A DNA stretch of 64,000 nucleotides from Thioploca sp. (GCA_012032555.1 JAAUSR010000011.1:1-64000); one strand, 5' to 3'. Numbered from the stretch's first letter, positions 19,972-27,080 are shown. Notes: generated by a model not told the origin, from the letters alone. Numbers and translations: made by a program.

Positions 19972-21165
19972 TCAAGCTGGTTGCATGGTGTAGTAACGCA
20001 AAGTTAAAGCAAATTCTTGTAGTGCTTTAATCCCAGTTGCCTCGGCTTGTTTACACCATTCTTGCAATGATTGTAAGAGGTATTCTTGGCTCACAGCCGT
20101 TTGTTGCCACAATGCTTGTAAGCGCATGCGGTAGTGATAGACGGTTTGTAAAGTTTGATTTTGTTCGAGTATGGTCACCAGATTAATTTTATCTTCTTCA
20201 TTTAGAAGAGATTCTTCTCGTATTAGCAAAGCGCGCACTCGCTTGAGTACTTGTCGAGAGGTACCTTGAGTATGGCGTAATTCTTCTTTATATACTTTAA
20301 CTAATACTTCTTTAGCATAGTGTGCCATTACTTGAAATCGGTAATGGAGAATTGCTTTAACTGTATCTCGATCGATCAAGTTTTTTCCTTGATGTAGGTG
20401 TGGGTGAGTAGCGACTTTTTTTACCTTAACTAAACCAACTGATTGCAATAAGCGAATGTACAACCAGCCAATATCAACTTCCCACCACTGAGAAGACAAT
20501 TTAGCGGAACTCGCAAAAGTATGATGGTTATTATGTAATTCCTCACCACCAATAAAAATACCCCAAGGTACAATATTTTTAGAAGCATCGGCACATTCAT
20601 AATTGCGGTATCCCCACCAATGTCCCAACCCGTTAATGAAACCCGCCGCAAAAATGGGAATCCACATCATTTGCACTGCCCAAACCGTAATACCGAGTGC
20701 ACCAAATAATAATAAATCGATAACCGCCATAATCGTTATACCCAACCAAGCATGACGAGTATACACATTTCGTTCTAACCAATCATTAGGTGTCCCATGT
20801 CCGTATTTAGCCAGTACTTCTGGTTGATGCGCAGCCTGGGCATAAAGTTCGGCACCTTGCCACAAAACTTTTCTAATGCCAAAGATTTGCGGGCTATGAG
20901 GGTCATGAGCTGTTTCGCAATTCGCATGATGTTTGCGATGAACCGCTACCCACTCTTTGGTAATTGTGCTGGTTGTTAACCAAATCCAGAAACGAAAAAA
21001 GTGACTCAGTATGGGGTGTAACTCCAAAGCACGATGTGCTTGATGACGATGTAAAAAAATAGTCACCGACGCAATAGTGATATGAGTTATGAGCAAAGTA
21101 ACCACCACAATACCCCAAACGGGTAATTCTAATAAACCATTTAACATAATTATCCTCATGTTCAA
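19972..21165 (-). CDS. DesA-type membrane fatty acid desaturase with C-terminal extension
   Basis: Introduces a double bond (usually delta-9) into fatty acyl chains in the membrane, using a di-iron site. Three histidine boxes are visible: HRHQAHR, HRKHH and HNNHH, set among four to five hydrophobic segments over residues 1-230. The C-terminal about 100 residues (from QVLKRVRALL) are helical, with the pattern L-L-x-R-x-x-x-L, then LEQNQTLQTVYHYR, LQALWQQ and LQEWCKQAEATGIKALQEFA. This part looks like the C-terminal helical region of ISL3-family transposases and is, as far as I recall, shared by gammaproteobacterial DesA-like desaturases. It is a single gene; the region upstream has heptamer repeats. 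Confidence 0.88.
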   Translation of the reverse strand: MNMRIIMLNGLLELPVWGIVVVTLLITHITIASVTIFLHRHQAHRALELHPILSHFFRFWIWLTTSTITKEWVAVHRKHHANCETAHDPHSPQIFGIRKVLWQGAELYAQAAHQPEVLAKYGHGTPNDWLERNVYTRHAWLGITIMAVIDLLLFGALGITVWAVQMMWIPIFAAGFINGLGHWWGYRNYECADASKNIVPWGIFIGGEELHNNHHTFASSAKLSSQWWEVDIGWLYIRLLQSVGLVKVKKVATHPHLHQGKNLIDRDTVKAILHYRFQVMAHYAKEVLVKVYKEELRHTQGTSRQVLKRVRALLIREESLLNEEDKINLVTILEQNQTLQTVYHYRMRLQALWQQTAVSQEYLLQSLQEWCKQAEATGIKALQEFALTLRYYTMQPA

Positions 21166-21390: not shown

Positions 21391-24207
21391 TCAGATAAAC
21401 CACCTTCGGATCAATTCCACTTGAAAACAATATTTATTATGACCAACCGATTCTATCAATTCGCGTTGAAGTAAATGAGTTAAAGCGACTTCACCATCTG
21501 GTTCTGACAGTTGGCTATGTTTGATTAAATCTTCTCGGCTAATGGTTGCGCCTTCTCCTTGTTGAGCTAAAAATCGTAATAAGCTTAAACCGGTCTTAGT
21601 TACTTGATTATTAGCAATATCAGCAAAGAAAAATCGTCCATGTTGTAACGCATCAGGAATCGCTGCTTCAACATCCGTCACTTGGGCAAATCGGCGTTTA
21701 ATAATATCTTGTTTATTTTTAAGTGTAACAATTTCTGCACATAACAATTGGATTAAAGCCGGATGACAGTGTGTTATTGTCATCACCCGTTGACTGGCAC
21801 TCGGATCATAACGCAGAGCAAAATCTTTTACTGGATGTTCAATAAGTTGTAAGGCCTCCTGAGCTTGTAGGTAGCTAATATGTACAGTTTGAACATTAAT
21901 TAAATAACTAGCCCAACGTTCAAATTCATCTATGGTATGAGAACCCGATAAGAGAATTTTAATACGGGGACGATGTTGAATAAGGTGACGAAACATACCC
22001 AATACCGAAACTTCATCTAAAAAACCTTTGTTAAAGATATGCTCTAAAGCACTAAACTCATCTAAAGTCAGTAATAAAGTTTGTTGCAAATCAAGACTCT
22101 GTTCTATTTCATCGAGCCATTCATCAAAACGCGTAAAGGGGTCAGTAATCAATTGTTCACGGCTCAGTGGTGGTAATTGTAATTCTCGATGACGCTTGGC
22201 AGAAGTTAACATAGCGCGACTGATGTTATAGAGAAAACCAGCATAATCTTTAGCTAAAGAAGCCGGACCTTGTAAATCGACAAAGAGCGGAATAATTTGC
22301 CAAGGTAATAATTTGCCTAGATTATTAAGTAAGGAAGTTTTACCGGTACGTCGCTGACCATATAATAACAAGGGTGGACAACGAACATCGAGTAATAATC
22401 GTTCAATTCGAGCACTGATATCACTACGCCCAACGAAGATTTCTTGATGTTCGGTCAGTGGAATGCCAATAATGTAGGGATTGCTAATTTCTTGCCGACT
22501 TTCTACCGCTTCCCCTAAGGCACGGACATAATCTGCTACCGTTTGTCGCCATTGCGCCGCAATAGGATAAAAACGTTGAGCATAAGGTTCGGAAGAACGT
22601 GTTAATTCTCTGAGTAAGCCATCTAAACGTTCTTCTACCGCATCTAAGGCGAGACGTTGATTGTAAGAACTTTCTTGCGCTAAACCAGCATCGACATCAC
22701 GACTAATTCGACTAAAACTACGTAATAATGCACTGACCGGACTACTTAATTCACCCGCCGCTAAGTGACGATGTGCTTGGCTAATGGTGGTCACATTGTG
22801 ATAACTTTGTAATCGTTTGGCGTCTAATTCAATTTGTGCTTCTTGTGCCGCCCAATTTTGAGGACTATTACTTAAATATTCTATAGCGGCTTTGCCAATG
22901 ATCGGATGACGTTCCGTTACCATGACTAAGTAAGTTTCTAATCCAAACAGGGGTAAATGTTGGTGTTCGTCCCAAAAAGCGGTATGCCAAGACAACAAGC
23001 TCGTTTGACTATCTCGTTTTTCCTCAGCATGGTAAAGCAATAAATTCCAGGCGGATTGGAACGGGTAAAATAACAATGGACGCCACCATACAAAACTTAA
23101 TCCGAGTAAAATAGCGGATAGCATTAATAATAATAGCCACAAGCTATCGTCTTGAATGAGGAGAGCAAAGGCAATAAAGACACCACCACTACCAAAAATC
23201 CCGGCAATAATGCCAGCCCAAGGATTGGCAATGCGTTCAGCCAGGACATAAGGAAAAGCAAACAATAATAGATAGAGAAACGCATTTTCAATTCCACCAT
23301 GAAAACCATAGGGTGGTATTTGGAGTGGCAACAATACGAAAAATTGATTCTTTAGTAACGTAAATAGAGCTAACAAGAAACTAGTAGCAAAACCCAACAA
23401 TAAGGCCGATTGCCAATGCCAAGTGGGTAAAAACCAAATAAACGCAATTGATAATCCAAACACGCCATTAATCAAAGTATCATAAGCTAAGGTAAATAGA
23501 ATCCCATTTTTTATCAAGACAGTAACACTATGAGCAGCCAAGGCGGTGAAGCCGACAATTAAAAACACCACCACGCTACTAACCACCACACCAATCACAA
23601 TACTACCCATTTGGCGATAAGCTGGATGATTATAGGCGGTTTGAGTGGTGCTATACATAATACTGCCCCCTAAACTCGCCGTAAAAATTCCTAACCAGAC
23701 TGTTAATAATGCTAGGAAATTTTCACCCGTTGTTACTGGAGAATCAGAGAAGTTGACGATGAGCATGATGGCAATCGCCAGATTTTTAGCCATGCTAAAC
23801 AAAATTTCTCCAGCAATACCGATAGGTAAGCTCAGTAAGATACCGCCTATTATTCCGGTAATAATGCCAAAAGCCACTGATACCATAAGACTGCCTAATA
23901 TTCCACCAACCAAACTCAGTGGTAGGGCATAACAGGTTGCTAATAAAATGCCTTCATTAGACGCATCTAACAACCATAAACAACAGATAACTATCAAGCT
24001 AACCCAAAGAGCAGTTAATCCATGCCCTAAGATCAATAATCGCCATAAAGCGGGATGTTGCCAATGTTGTTTAGTTAAATGCGCTAAAGCAAAATTAGGT
24101 GATAAATGGGGATCGATAGTAGCGACATAACGCCGCCATGCTGAAGGCGTAAATAATAACCAACCAATAATAACTAAACTCGCGAAAATTGGACTGGATG
24201 GTAACAT
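21391..24207 (-). CDS. Polytopic membrane protein with cytosolic P-loop ATPase and winged-helix C-terminus
   Basis: A 938-residue protein I cannot assign to a named family. Residues 1-385 hold about eleven to thirteen hydrophobic helices. Residues 390-590 are soluble. Residues about 600-850 form a STAND/ATPase_2-like P-loop domain that opens with an F-V-G-R motif (EIFVGRSDISARIERLL), has the Walker A LLYGQRRTGKTSLL and the Walker B LLLTLDEFSAL, and then a sensor-like LLSGSH. The last about 70 residues (GLSLLRFLAQQGEGATISREDL...) look like a winged helix. It starts 36 bases after the XRE-ATPase gene on the same strand, so the two are probably one operon. A role as a membrane-tethered switch is inference. 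It does not look like a transporter of a known class. Confidence 0.75.
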   Translation of the reverse strand: MLPSSPIFASLVIIGWLLFTPSAWRRYVATIDPHLSPNFALAHLTKQHWQHPALWRLLILGHGLTALWVSLIVICCLWLLDASNEGILLATCYALPLSLVGGILGSLMVSVAFGIITGIIGGILLSLPIGIAGEILFSMAKNLAIAIMLIVNFSDSPVTTGENFLALLTVWLGIFTASLGGSIMYSTTQTAYNHPAYRQMGSIVIGVVVSSVVVFLIVGFTALAAHSVTVLIKNGILFTLAYDTLINGVFGLSIAFIWFLPTWHWQSALLLGFATSFLLALFTLLKNQFFVLLPLQIPPYGFHGGIENAFLYLLLFAFPYVLAERIANPWAGIIAGIFGSGGVFIAFALLIQDDSLWLLLLMLSAILLGLSFVWWRPLLFYPFQSAWNLLLYHAEEKRDSQTSLLSWHTAFWDEHQHLPLFGLETYLVMVTERHPIIGKAAIEYLSNSPQNWAAQEAQIELDAKRLQSYHNVTTISQAHRHLAAGELSSPVSALLRSFSRISRDVDAGLAQESSYNQRLALDAVEERLDGLLRELTRSSEPYAQRFYPIAAQWRQTVADYVRALGEAVESRQEISNPYIIGIPLTEHQEIFVGRSDISARIERLLLDVRCPPLLLYGQRRTGKTSLLNNLGKLLPWQIIPLFVDLQGPASLAKDYAGFLYNISRAMLTSAKRHRELQLPPLSREQLITDPFTRFDEWLDEIEQSLDLQQTLLLTLDEFSALEHIFNKGFLDEVSVLGMFRHLIQHRPRIKILLSGSHTIDEFERWASYLINVQTVHISYLQAQEALQLIEHPVKDFALRYDPSASQRVMTITHCHPALIQLLCAEIVTLKNKQDIIKRRFAQVTDVEAAIPDALQHGRFFFADIANNQVTKTGLSLLRFLAQQGEGATISREDLIKHSQLSEPDGEVALTHLLQRELIESVGHNKYCFQVELIRRWFI

Positions 24208-24243
24208 CGTGATAGTAACCAGTGGAGAATGGCTGTTGTTAGG

Positions 24244-25409
24244 CTATTCATTCTGGCTGTTTTCCAATAAATAGCGATAAGGATTCATCCGTCGTAAAGC
24301 TTCTGTTTTCCAAGTTTCGTCAGTTTTGCCCTCTTCTAAGGCGGTGAGACGCGCATGACACAAAATCTGTAATAATGCCGGCCATTGACCACTTTGATTC
24401 ATAATCCAGTCAATATCACTTTGCCCAAAGGGAATAGGGGAACTTGCGATAAGACTAAGTGTTTCTGATTCAGTTAATGGACCCAAATATAAGACATGAC
24501 CAAAGATATTGAAAAAAGGTGAAGGTTTATTATCGTCTAAAATCATTTCTTCTGGTGCTTGGTGAGCCGTGAGTAAAAACCCGATTTTACCACCAGCATG
24601 ATGACTTCCTAATGAGCGCATACCCCACCAAAATTGTTCGTCTAAATCTGGCGAAGCTAAACCTGCACTAATTTCGTCCAATAAAACTAAGGTTGGAATT
24701 TCCAAATAATTATCAATGATTTCCATAAAGCTAACTAAATCACAAGGTTCCGGAACCGGCATATCTAATTCAATTAAAATATGCCGCAATAAACTTTCCT
24801 GATAACCCATCCGGGGATCTTGAAAATCGACAAAAACCCACTGATAACCGGGACTAAGCCAATTATTACGTTGTTTGGGACGTAATTGCTCGGCTGGGGT
24901 ATCAATAATCCGGCGGAGATAATGGAGTAAAGAGGTTTTACCACTACGTTTAAACCCTACAATGGCAATATGTTGTAGTGGTGTGTATTTCCAAACGTCA
25001 AAGATCCGTTTTAAAATATATTCTCGCCCAAAAAATTGATGGGGTTCAGTAATCGGTGGCCCAATCACAAAAGGACTACTATGCCAAGTATTTAAAGAAA
25101 TAGGTAAATTTGACTGAGTTAGCATCATTGGCTCTGCTTCATTATCACTTGCCAATCCCGCCGCTAATAAGAGGTTTTCACACTCAGTGGCTGTTAAGTT
25201 CAGATGGTAAGCACATCGCAATACTTCATCGCGTTCCAATGGTAAACTAAATTCGTCGTTAACCATTCTAATAAAACATCACGACGTACCTTGATTTTTT
25301 TAGCTAATTCAACATTACTTATGCCGCAACGTTTCATATAACTTATTAGCAGTTCTGCAAATGAAGGCATAAATGAATAGTGACTTTGATCTTTAAATAG
25401 AGAATTCAT
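24244..25409 (-). CDS. XRE-type HTH protein with P-loop ATPase domain (one frameshift)
   Basis: Bridging one missing base near 25255-25262 gives about 388 residues. Residues 1-80 are an XRE-like helix-turn-helix (FAELLISYMKRCGISNVELA then VRRDVLLEWL) continuing into RDEVLRCAYHLNLTATECENL and LLLAAGL, a pattern seen in XRE heads of NTPase regulators. Then comes an ATPase domain: F-F-G-R-E motif, Walker A IVGFKRSGKTSLLHYL and Walker B LVLLDEISAGL, followed by LLTAHQ. It shares the P-H-Q/E-x-F-x-G-R entrance and domain type with the membrane ATPase 36 bases downstream. The pair looks like a two-part ATP-dependent regulatory or defence-like module; function is not known. Confidence 0.75.
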
Positions 25410-25530
25410 CGTTGGAGATGACCAAGTTACATTTTATAGACATGGATAGACATGACCTTATTTTGAGTCAGACCTTCTGTCGTGTATAAGGATGCAACCA
25501 GTCCGATATTCCCTCGCCCACTTTCCCGAC

Positions 25531-25884
25531 TCAATCGAAGAAAGAAAACTTAGGGTTACATTTCCTTAAGATATTGTAGGCCCCATTCATATCTATATTG
25601 ATTAAGATTCTGTCTTGAGAACGGTACAAGCCCAGTTTAATGCGTTTACCCAGGAAGAAAGCGGTTCGGTTGGTACTAATTAGGTAACGAATCTCAAAGT
25701 TAATGCAGTTGGCAATATCAGAAAAAACCTAATCGCTTGCCACACCTTGTTTGGTTGGAGCGGAGACCCGATCATAAATAAATAATTTTAGGTGACGGTA
25801 GACGGAAATCGTTCCCTGGTTGACCAGCCTTGACCGGTGTTTACGACTAATACCGGTAAGTTTGAGAACCTCTTTAGCTTTCAT
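25531..25884 (-). mobile_element. Wrecked IS607-type element (tnpA and tnpB remnants)
   Basis: Two remnants lie in one direction. From the ATG at 25884: MKAKEVLKLTGISRK, the MerR-like DNA-binding head of IS607 serine recombinases, running quickly into IYDRVSAPTKQ, which matches the catalytic-serine motif Y-A-R-V-S-T-x-K-Q; a stop follows, and the rest is missing. Then, about 25730-25531: GKRIKLGLYRSQDRILIN and IDMNGAYNILRK, the RuvC-III end of a TnpB nuclease with its last acidic residue, ending in TGA at 25531. Most of both proteins is deleted. The palindrome ATTATAGAC-TG-GTCTATAAT (25907-25926) stands just outside the tnpA start. Confidence 0.75.
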
Positions 25885-26351
25885 CAAGTCGTATTATACA
25901 CACCTCATTATAGACTGGTCTATAATTATGGATGTTTTTACCGATTGACCAAGGTTGGCTTCGATCTTTGAAGAAGTGGGTAATATTTTACCTGATGGTA
26001 TTGAGTTAGAGAGAATTTTTGCTGATACTCAATGGCGTTCAAGAATAAATGTATTGTGGTAGGGAAGGATTTTCCCACTAGCAACCGAAATAGAACATTG
26101 CTTGGGAGTTACTGAGTATGAAAAACCTAGTGTAGGCAAAAAAATCTCTCAGGATTAACTATCTTTTGCTAAACTTAGATCTAAAAGAATGGACAACTTA
26201 TTCTTTGATATTCATTTTTTACTAAGTTAGTATCCCACGTCTGGTCAATTTCGGCTAGTCAAAAAACACCTCTCATTTTTTTAATGGGGTTGAGTCATTT
26301 TTTCTCAATACCTAAAATTTGGGCTAGGCTTATTTAGCGAGGAGTTAGGCC
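25885..26351. other. Intergenic region beside the IS607 remnant
   Basis: It holds the 20-base palindrome at 25907-25926. On the plus strand a short open stretch of about 36 codons (25965-26060, reading ...SIFEEVGNILPDGIELER...) ends in a stop; it may be the remains of a gene but I do not recognise it. The last bases carry a GAGGAG-like ribosome binding site for the gene at 26352. Confidence 0.4.
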
Positions 26352-27080
26352 ATGTTTAGATTGTTTTTCTTAATTATTAGCGTCATGACTCTAGTTGACG
26401 CAGTATCGGCAGCGGATGCTGTTGTTATTCATGCTCAGCAAACGGATTCTTTTTACCCAGGACAATTACTGGATAGCAAAATGGATGTCAGTTTAGCCGA
26501 ACAAGCGGAGTTTACCGTGGTCTTTGCCGACGGTCATGTCCAAACTATAACCGGACCTTATCAAGGTCAATTGGCAAATCCTACTGAACTCGCGCTAGCG
26601 GATCCTGAATTTATTCCTAATTTTGTCAAAGCATTAGATGAAATTAAAGTCCTCCAAGAGCAAGTGACTCGAGGACCAACTAAAAACCCCGACGATATTT
26701 GGTGGGTAGATGTGGCAACCCAATCCACCCAACAACGCTTTTTTTGCATTGCGCCAGCAGTTAAAGTCGTGTTATGGCGACCCCAAAGTCAAAGTGATAG
26801 TGCTGCTACCGTATTGATTAAACATAGACCGACCGGCAAAGAGGCCAAAGTAGTTTGGCCAGCTTATCAAACGACTTTGAAATGGCCAGAAAGCTTACCG
26901 ATTATCGATGGTGAAACTTACAATGTTGAGGTTAAAACTCGACAAGGTGCTTTTACCTTTAAACGGTTAGTGCTCTATAAAGTTCCCGATAGTTTACCAA
27001 CTAATTCGCATAAGGTGGTTTGGATGGTAGGAAGAGGGTGCATTTCTCAAGCGAATATGTTATTGGCCAGTTTACGTTAA
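26352..27080 (+). CDS. Secreted hypothetical protein
   Basis: A 242-residue protein with a clear signal peptide (1-20, cleavage near VSAA). The mature part begins with a short domain that has VFADGHVQTITGPYQG, a pattern seen in FecR-like or surface anchoring segments, then a linker, and a C-terminal all-beta part (W-R-P-Q-S..., LKWPESLPI, YNVEVKTRQGAFTFKR) that could be an Ig-like fold. GAGGAG precedes the ATG. A strong terminator follows at 27153. No family recognised with confidence; location in the periplasm or outside is likely. Confidence 0.65.
   Translation: MFRLFFLIISVMTLVDAVSAADAVVIHAQQTDSFYPGQLLDSKMDVSLAEQAEFTVVFADGHVQTITGPYQGQLANPTELALADPEFIPNFVKALDEIKVLQEQVTRGPTKNPDDIWWVDVATQSTQQRFFCIAPAVKVVLWRPQSQSDSAATVLIKHRPTGKEAKVVWPAYQTTLKWPESLPIIDGETYNVEVKTRQGAFTFKRLVLYKVPDSLPTNSHKVVWMVGRGCISQANMLLASLR

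Follow-up and report, generated by a model that had tools for sequence, protein, structure and literature searches.

A conserved pair of STAND ATPases with a secreted partner in Beggiatoaceae: a possible envelope-signalling switch

Two neighbouring ATPase genes on a contig of Thioploca sp. raise the question of whether their products work together and, if so, whether they serve defence or ordinary physiology. The window analysed here, a stretch of 64,000 nucleotides (GCA_012032555.1 JAAUSR010000011.1:1-64000), comes from a genome of 5.55 Mb in 198 contigs. An initial annotation had described positions 21391-25409 as a two-gene module consisting of an ATPase headed by an XRE-type DNA-binding domain (hereafter A) and a polytopic membrane ATPase (M). 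ORF calling in the window recovered two reading frames on the minus strand, spaced by 36 bases, but the XRE head of A proved to be out of frame. The unit had also been drawn too small, since a secreted protein encoded divergently from A (X) is linked to A more tightly than M is. The features of the locus are collected in Table 1.

Table 1. Features of the X-A-M locus, in coordinates of the window
Feature	Position	Strand	Basis
M, polytopic membrane STAND ATPase of 938 aa, member of the core family	21391..24207	-	ORF, orthologues, AlphaFold2, dN/dS
Membrane part of M (residues 1-397), with about 12 helices and no Pfam family	23017..24207	-	hydropathy, model, alignment, Pfam
Soluble, helical middle region of M (residues 398-571)	22495..23016	-	alignment, helices in model
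M residues 572-938, STAND/AAA ATPase and C-terminal winged helix	21394..22494	-	alignment, model, structure matches, Pfam
A, STAND/AAA ATPase ORF, 340 aa	24244..25266	-	ORF, orthologues, dN/dS
5' portion of the XRE head of A, out of frame with the ATPase in the window genome	25261..25409	-	comparison with G040, HTH profile matches
IS-like remnant, about 525 bp extra relative to G040, directly upstream of A	25425..25951		boundaries approximate
Conserved X-A intergenic element, CTAAGTTTAGCAAAA here, consensus TTAAGTTTAGCAAAA	26164..26178	-	at least 13 identities in 14 of 27 genomes
X, 242-aa secreted protein, divergent partner of A	26352..27080	+	head-to-head linkage, dN/dS

Domain anatomy of the two ATPases and their partner

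The membrane part of M shows twelve hydropathy peaks within residues 1-373. In an AlphaFold2 model (mean pLDDT 78.5, pTM 0.54) helices fill residues 6-397, a helical middle region reaches to about residue 571, and a winged helix is formed by residues 871-937, in agreement with the roughly twelve membrane helices and C-terminal winged helix first proposed from the sequence. Within the ATPase, pLDDT falls below 50 at residues 572-598 and 609-629, and the catalytic loops around 572-629 are therefore modelled with low confidence. Alignments revealed that the middle region (398-571) is kept between Beggiatoaceae and Chloroflexota, and that the membrane part (1-397) is the least conserved region of M between the two phyla. 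None of 22 M members matched a Pfam membrane or transporter family at an E-value of 0.01, so the membership in a known transporter family that would have argued against a module was not found for the membrane part. Transporters were likewise absent from the structure matches listed for M, in searches that were dominated by the ATPase part and hardly probed the membrane part. Searches of PDB sequences yielded no useful relatives of M or of the ATPase of A.

Both proteins carry Walker A and Walker B motifs. In the window M these read GQRRTGKTS and LLLTLDEF, and family alignments showed GQRRxGKTSL and LDEF to be invariant in M and GxxRSGKTSLL and LLDEI in A. A GxP-like motif, assigned by eye, is xHPALIQL in M, where H815 and P816 are invariant and the glycine varies within the core clade, and SGxWPALLQIL in A. 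The shared F-x-G-R-e entrance described for the two proteins holds for A (FFGRE) but not for M, which has FVGRS. The two ATPase domains match each other weakly, at about 24-43% over parts. The Pfam families AAA_22, AAA_16, ATPase_2 and nSTAND1 recur across both protein families, with scores for the single A and M proteins that fall under the curated cut-offs. In a structure search, residues 586-938 of the M model aligned with the archaeal protein SSO1545, CED-4, the plant NRC and RPP1 resistosomes, MalT, Avs3 and ORC, and for NRC, CED-4, RPP1 and SSO1545 the alignments continued into the winged helix. On the strength of these alignments we place the ATPases of A and M among the STAND/ORC members of the AAA+ proteins; together with the family-wide Pfam matches they uphold the STAND-like P-loop domain that had been assigned to both proteins. 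C-terminal TPR, WD or LRR repeats are absent, as M and A stop at or near the winged helix; since many accepted STAND proteins lack such repeats, their absence is not decisive.

In common with known STAND NTPases (Pfam nSTAND1, AAA_16 and ATPase_2; CED-4, plant NLRs, MalT, Avs3 and SSO1545), A and M have a P-loop ATPase, with a winged helix behind it in the model of M, N-terminal domains that vary, and frequent lineage-specific expansions. They differ from them in that two STAND proteins are adjacent and one of them sits on about 12 membrane helices, in having no sensor repeats, and in Pfam scores that mostly stay under threshold. The fusion of a STAND ATPase to a DNA-binding head makes A resemble regulators of the LuxR/MalT and SARP (BTAD) types, whereas its partnership with a membrane STAND and the frequent loss of its head set it apart from them.

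X begins with a signal-peptide-like segment, and a Pfam scan assigned it to no family. Its structure model is weak (pLDDT 63.9) and has a C-terminal beta-sandwich; the PDB matches of this model (the cupredoxin domain of nitrous oxide reductase, FN3, Ig) show the beta-sandwich only. A resemblance to FecR or DUF928, seen by eye, was ruled out by the Pfam scan, by genome-wide family searches in which X was not among the PF04773 or PF06051 matches in G000, and by profile-profile comparison (probabilities of 3% for FecR and 0.2% for DUF928). In most of ten sampled genomes a relative of the C-terminal domain of X adjoins Reg_prop/Y_Y_Y hybrid sensor kinases, a position that would suit a protein working with a membrane sensor from the periplasmic side. 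The core of the 15-mer located between X and A is, genome-wide, no commoner than a reversed control, that is, at background; AARTTTAGCAAAA was accordingly rejected as a genome-wide regulon site, its specificity being to the X-A gap only. Since the element is also present in genomes where A is headless, its binder need not be A.

Distribution, descent and setting of X, A and M

The family sample comprised 42 genomes from 25 genera, namely the window genome and 41 others. We took this family to be Beggiatoaceae because its named matches are Parabeggiatoa, Thiomargarita, Thioploca and relatives, and because Beggiatoaceae comprises 25 GTDB genera (PMC11172852, 2024). Orthologues of M were found in about 32 of the 42 genomes (58-94% identity), orthologues of A in 31, and a member of the X family in 39. 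Orthologues of all three proteins are present in 27 genomes and of none in 8; the 7 mixed genomes include several incomplete or fragmented assemblies. Fisher tests of the associations (p of 1e-6 for A with M and 2e-5 for A with X) are indicative only, as the genomes are related and not independent. X and A are arranged head-to-head in 26 of the 28 genomes that have both. In G007 a contig break splits A and leaves its head on the contig of X, and G020 is the only genome with X and A on separate contigs without explanation. A and M occur together in 30 genomes, being adjacent on the same strand in 16; in several genomes assembled into long contigs (G001, G023 and G036) the two genes are not linked. 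The co-occurrence of both families in other genomes, on which the idea of a module had been made to depend, was thus found, and it extends to adjacent genes in Chloroflexota.

All three genes are under strong purifying selection. Compared with G040, a genome of the same genus, dN/dS was 0.066 for M (0.057 for its membrane part), 0.037 for the ATPase of A and 0.106 for X, with 0.074 for the neighbouring desaturase; the remainder of A's head gave 0.27, on 45 codons only. In a tree of the M ATPase, the core copies of Beggiatoaceae fall into a single short-branched clade with full support, the paralogues from the same family lie apart on long branches, and the Chloroflexota copies lie close to the core clade. 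The core copy is vertically inherited across Beggiatoaceae and slow-evolving. When 369 genomes of Gammaproteobacteria were sampled, the matches were confined to Beggiatoaceae apart from one, to the ATPase only.

Complete A-M pairs were found in Chloroflexota at five loci (L083, L086, L088, L175 and L176), where the genes are adjacent and the proteins 43-50% identical. Such pairs are rare there: 14 of 400 sampled genomes pass an E-value of 1e-60, several of them lacking the membrane part. Gene clustering did not recover X at the Chloroflexota loci. M of the core type from Chloroflexota is 45-51% identical to the window M, while full-length paralogues within Beggiatoaceae are mostly farther or equal (28-49%). 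That proteins from another phylum resemble the window M about as much as most family paralogues do, or more, fits a lateral transfer of M between the phyla, in a tree some of whose deep branches are weak. A published case of genes passing between filamentous gliding bacteria is that of Desulfonema (PMC6390638).

The neighbours of the core copy are genes for L13, tRNA-Gln, a desaturase, a UPF0093/HemJ-like protein and yicC. The wrecked mobile element that had been reported next to the module is real, and is extra relative to G040. It contains fragments resembling a TnpB C-terminus and an HTH, named by eye, on which Pfam was weak or silent. This IS-like remnant separates the X-A promoter region from the start codon of A, so that in the window genome A and M have probably been severed from the ancestral promoter region. 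A setting typical of defence, as had been supposed, was not borne out, given the housekeeping neighbours, the single slow-evolving inherited clade and the local nature of the insertion. Phage searches gave no good match to the core copy, plasmid searches gave one partial match only, and the core copy was not found in viral contigs. PADLOC returned no confident match for the window proteins (best E 0.04) or for 21 relatives of A (best E 2.5e-4), six of which weakly match mad8, probably through the shared P-loop. In Anaerolineae, A or the A-M pair adjoins PMT-type glycosyltransferases (L083, L084 and L085) and MurJ (L083), a hint towards envelope glycans.

The head of A and the exchange of parts in paralogous pairs

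The ATG at 25409 is real, but its frame closes within the head, and the ATPase runs in another frame from about 25266; the ORF that begins with the ATG at 25266 takes in the 3' part of the XRE head. In G040, whose A is 94% identical, head and ATPase form a single reading frame, and comparison revealed that one C is missing in the window (AACGA versus AACCGA). Given the single frame in G040, and since no slippery heptamer was seen at the site, we rejected a programmed frameshift joining head and ATPase; a real deletion or an assembly error is more likely. The description of two intact proteins at this locus is thus wrong for the window genome, unless the missing base is an assembly error, and the DNA-binding output of its switch is probably not intact.

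The head is in frame in 18 of the core A genes examined, frameshifted in two (the window genome and G012) and missing from nine. The XRE head that had been assigned to this ATPase therefore exists in most relatives, and its frameshift is what sets the window copy apart from them. Relatives of A gave Pfam matches to HTH_31, HTH_3 and HTH_26 in their heads, and the head of A itself gave profile matches to the HTH structures 2kpj and 3op9. In all nine headless genomes the ATPase is kept, and in eight of them so is the linkage of A to X. This repeated loss weakens DNA binding as a universal output of A. Since the ATPase stays conserved where the head is lost or frameshifted, the partnership of the A and M ATPases must have a role that is independent of the head.

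Paralogous pairs keep the A-M order and change the parts. On the A side, a paralogue in the window's own genome carries a SEFIR/TIR head (L110), and others carry a protein kinase (L177), Trans_reg_C (L178), BTAD (L088) or two or three XRE copies (L116 and L119). On the M side, a beta-propeller replaces the membrane domain at L178, and a protein of 1540 aa from one Anaerolineales genome combines the membrane domain, without the rest of M, with an unrelated region. Large genomes hold up to 22 M-family matches each, on long branches. This modularity suggests that A carries the output head and that M is the sensing side.

Competing readings and what the locus may mean

The anatomy of the locus, the co-occurrence of X, A and M and the selection acting on them are observations, and the reading that we favour, with less than even confidence, is that the three form one envelope-signalling switch built on two STAND ATPases. 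X in the periplasm and the membrane domain of M would constitute its sensing side. A signal would change the nucleotide state of the STAND domain of M, which would pair with the homologous STAND domain of A at the cytoplasmic face. A would then relay the signal through its exchangeable head, here transcription control of the XRE type, an output that would probably cover the divergent promoter between X and A and the conserved element there. Sensing, the pairing of A with M and the output of the head are the steps that we infer. Against a single switch count the genomes in which M is not linked to A, the failure of the clustering to recover X in Chloroflexota, and the repeated loss of the head.

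The main rival, which we consider unlikely, is that A and M form an NLR-like conflict pair for immunity or programmed death, in which one protein senses invasion and the other perturbs the membrane or triggers an effector. Such a pair would agree with a STAND fold closest to plant NLRs, CED-4 and Avs3, and with the multiplicity and long branches of the M-family paralogues in large genomes. Multicellular bacteria, Beggiatoa among them, are moreover enriched in STAND conflict systems (PMC7159879; PMC10907252), and Beggiatoa is named among the hosts of NTP-dependent conflict systems (Kaur et al. 2020, PMC7159879). Like A and M, those systems have NTPases with exchangeable effector-like heads that are expanded in filamentous bacteria. 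In contrast to them, no vWA, MoxR, VMAP, EAD or caspase component was found beside the A-M pair (vWA and MoxR being absent from the annotated neighbours in the window), and inheritance of the core copy is vertical, with a near-universal presence in its family. Its slow evolution in one clade, its housekeeping neighbours and the outcome of the phage, plasmid, viral-contig and PADLOC searches also argue against a conflict role for this copy, which looks like one kept vertically as an envelope switch rather than as a phage-defence cassette. The divergent paralogous pairs, with their SEFIR/TIR, kinase and other DNA-binding heads, lend a conflict role some probability.

Two ATPases, about 12 membrane helices, a secreted partner and a dispensable head on A could also belong to an ATP-driven membrane machine such as an exporter, a flippase or an envelope-building complex, with M as channel and motor, A as accessory motor and the head as secondary, and the glycosyltransferases and MurJ of Anaerolineae suggest envelope glycans as its object. 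We regard this as distinctly unlikely, since the transporter searches described above were negative in Pfam (0 of 22 members) and in the structure matches listed (which mainly probed the ATPase part), and since the membrane part, unlike a substrate pathway, is the least conserved between phyla. That A simply regulates X as an XRE-type protein, with M a separate gene placed downstream by chance, would account for the head-to-head arrangement, the conserved intergenic element and the 18 intact heads. It is nevertheless improbable, because the ATPase and most of the linkage to X outlast the head in nine genomes, and because A-M adjacency is preserved across two phyla and in paralogous pairs.

The switch that we favour can be put in a broader form, which we hold to be possible but rather doubtful: Beggiatoaceae would have inherited vertically a membrane-embedded, NLR-like two-protein STAND switch with a secreted partner, a switch that lateral transfer would have made common to Chloroflexota, in which two STAND proteins replace a kinase-regulator pair and which serves envelope or multicellular physiology (filament, sheath, gliding) rather than defence. 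The parts of X-A-M are of known kinds, and their combination (two STANDs, one of them polytopic, a secreted head-to-head partner, and the standing of a near-core family trait) is unnamed in the literature searched, which lay mostly outside subscription journals; no paper there names the A-M pair, in line with the view that it belongs to no named system.

Work on STAND ATPases has mostly treated them as switches of immunity or death. A near-universal, slowly evolving STAND pair would, if the broader form is true, represent immune-type machinery kept for ordinary physiology, and it stands beside paralogues that evolve fast and exchange TIR, kinase and DNA-binding heads. Its hosts are giant and filamentous sulfur bacteria, and its ATPases are of the same class as the immune switches of plants and animals. 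For a family whose genetics are poorly known, X, A and M provide a concrete set of three genes for probing a link between signalling ATPases and bacterial multicellularity.

Region around the ATPase genes

An insertion, an IS-like remnant lying immediately upstream of the STAND ATPase gene A, cuts off the ancestral promoter region between A and the divergent gene X, which encodes a secreted protein, from A and from the gene for the membrane ATPase M. Inspection by eye suggested pieces resembling a TnpB C-terminus (LYRSQDRILINIDMNGAYNILRKCNP) and an IS607-type HTH; Pfam support for the remnant was weak (HTH_17, E 0.014). The first 49 codons of the A head are almost the same in DNA as in the same-genus genome G040, with two synonymous and two nonsynonymous differences and a dS of 0.07, against approximately 0.45 in the flanking genes. 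This low divergence may reflect local conservation or a recent exchange. In its C-terminal part the desaturase matches FA_desaturase and also the DDE domain of the ISL3 transposase (E 5.5e-13); G040 carries the same gene intact.

Features in the window and at related loci
Feature	Location	Length
Fatty-acid desaturase gene	window 19972-21165	397 aa
A head, first codons	window 25261-25409	49 codons
IS-like remnant	window 25425-25951	
Second STAND pair	L110:8135-11982	
M-domain fusion	L173:7763-12385	
A or A-M neighbourhoods	L084:6898-11429; L085:1305-3947; L083:2220-5738	
Secreted X-domain relatives	L201:6935-7516; L203:6267-6812	

Related ATPase loci

The second STAND pair of the window's own genome, with a SEFIR/TIR head on one member, is plausibly a conflict-type module. 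In an Anaerolineales genome, the membrane domain of M is joined to an unrelated region of ~1150 aa without the STAND ATPase, reflecting either domain shuffling or chimeric assembly. PMT-type glycosyltransferases and MurJ adjoin A or A-M in Anaerolineae.

Relatives of the secreted protein

Secreted relatives of the X C-terminal domain were found at the two tabulated loci and eight others. Reg_prop/Y_Y_Y hybrid histidine kinases adjoin them in 8 of the 10, and a CHAT-TPR protein does so at several. Together they make up a family of uncharacterised secreted proteins associated with membrane sensors.
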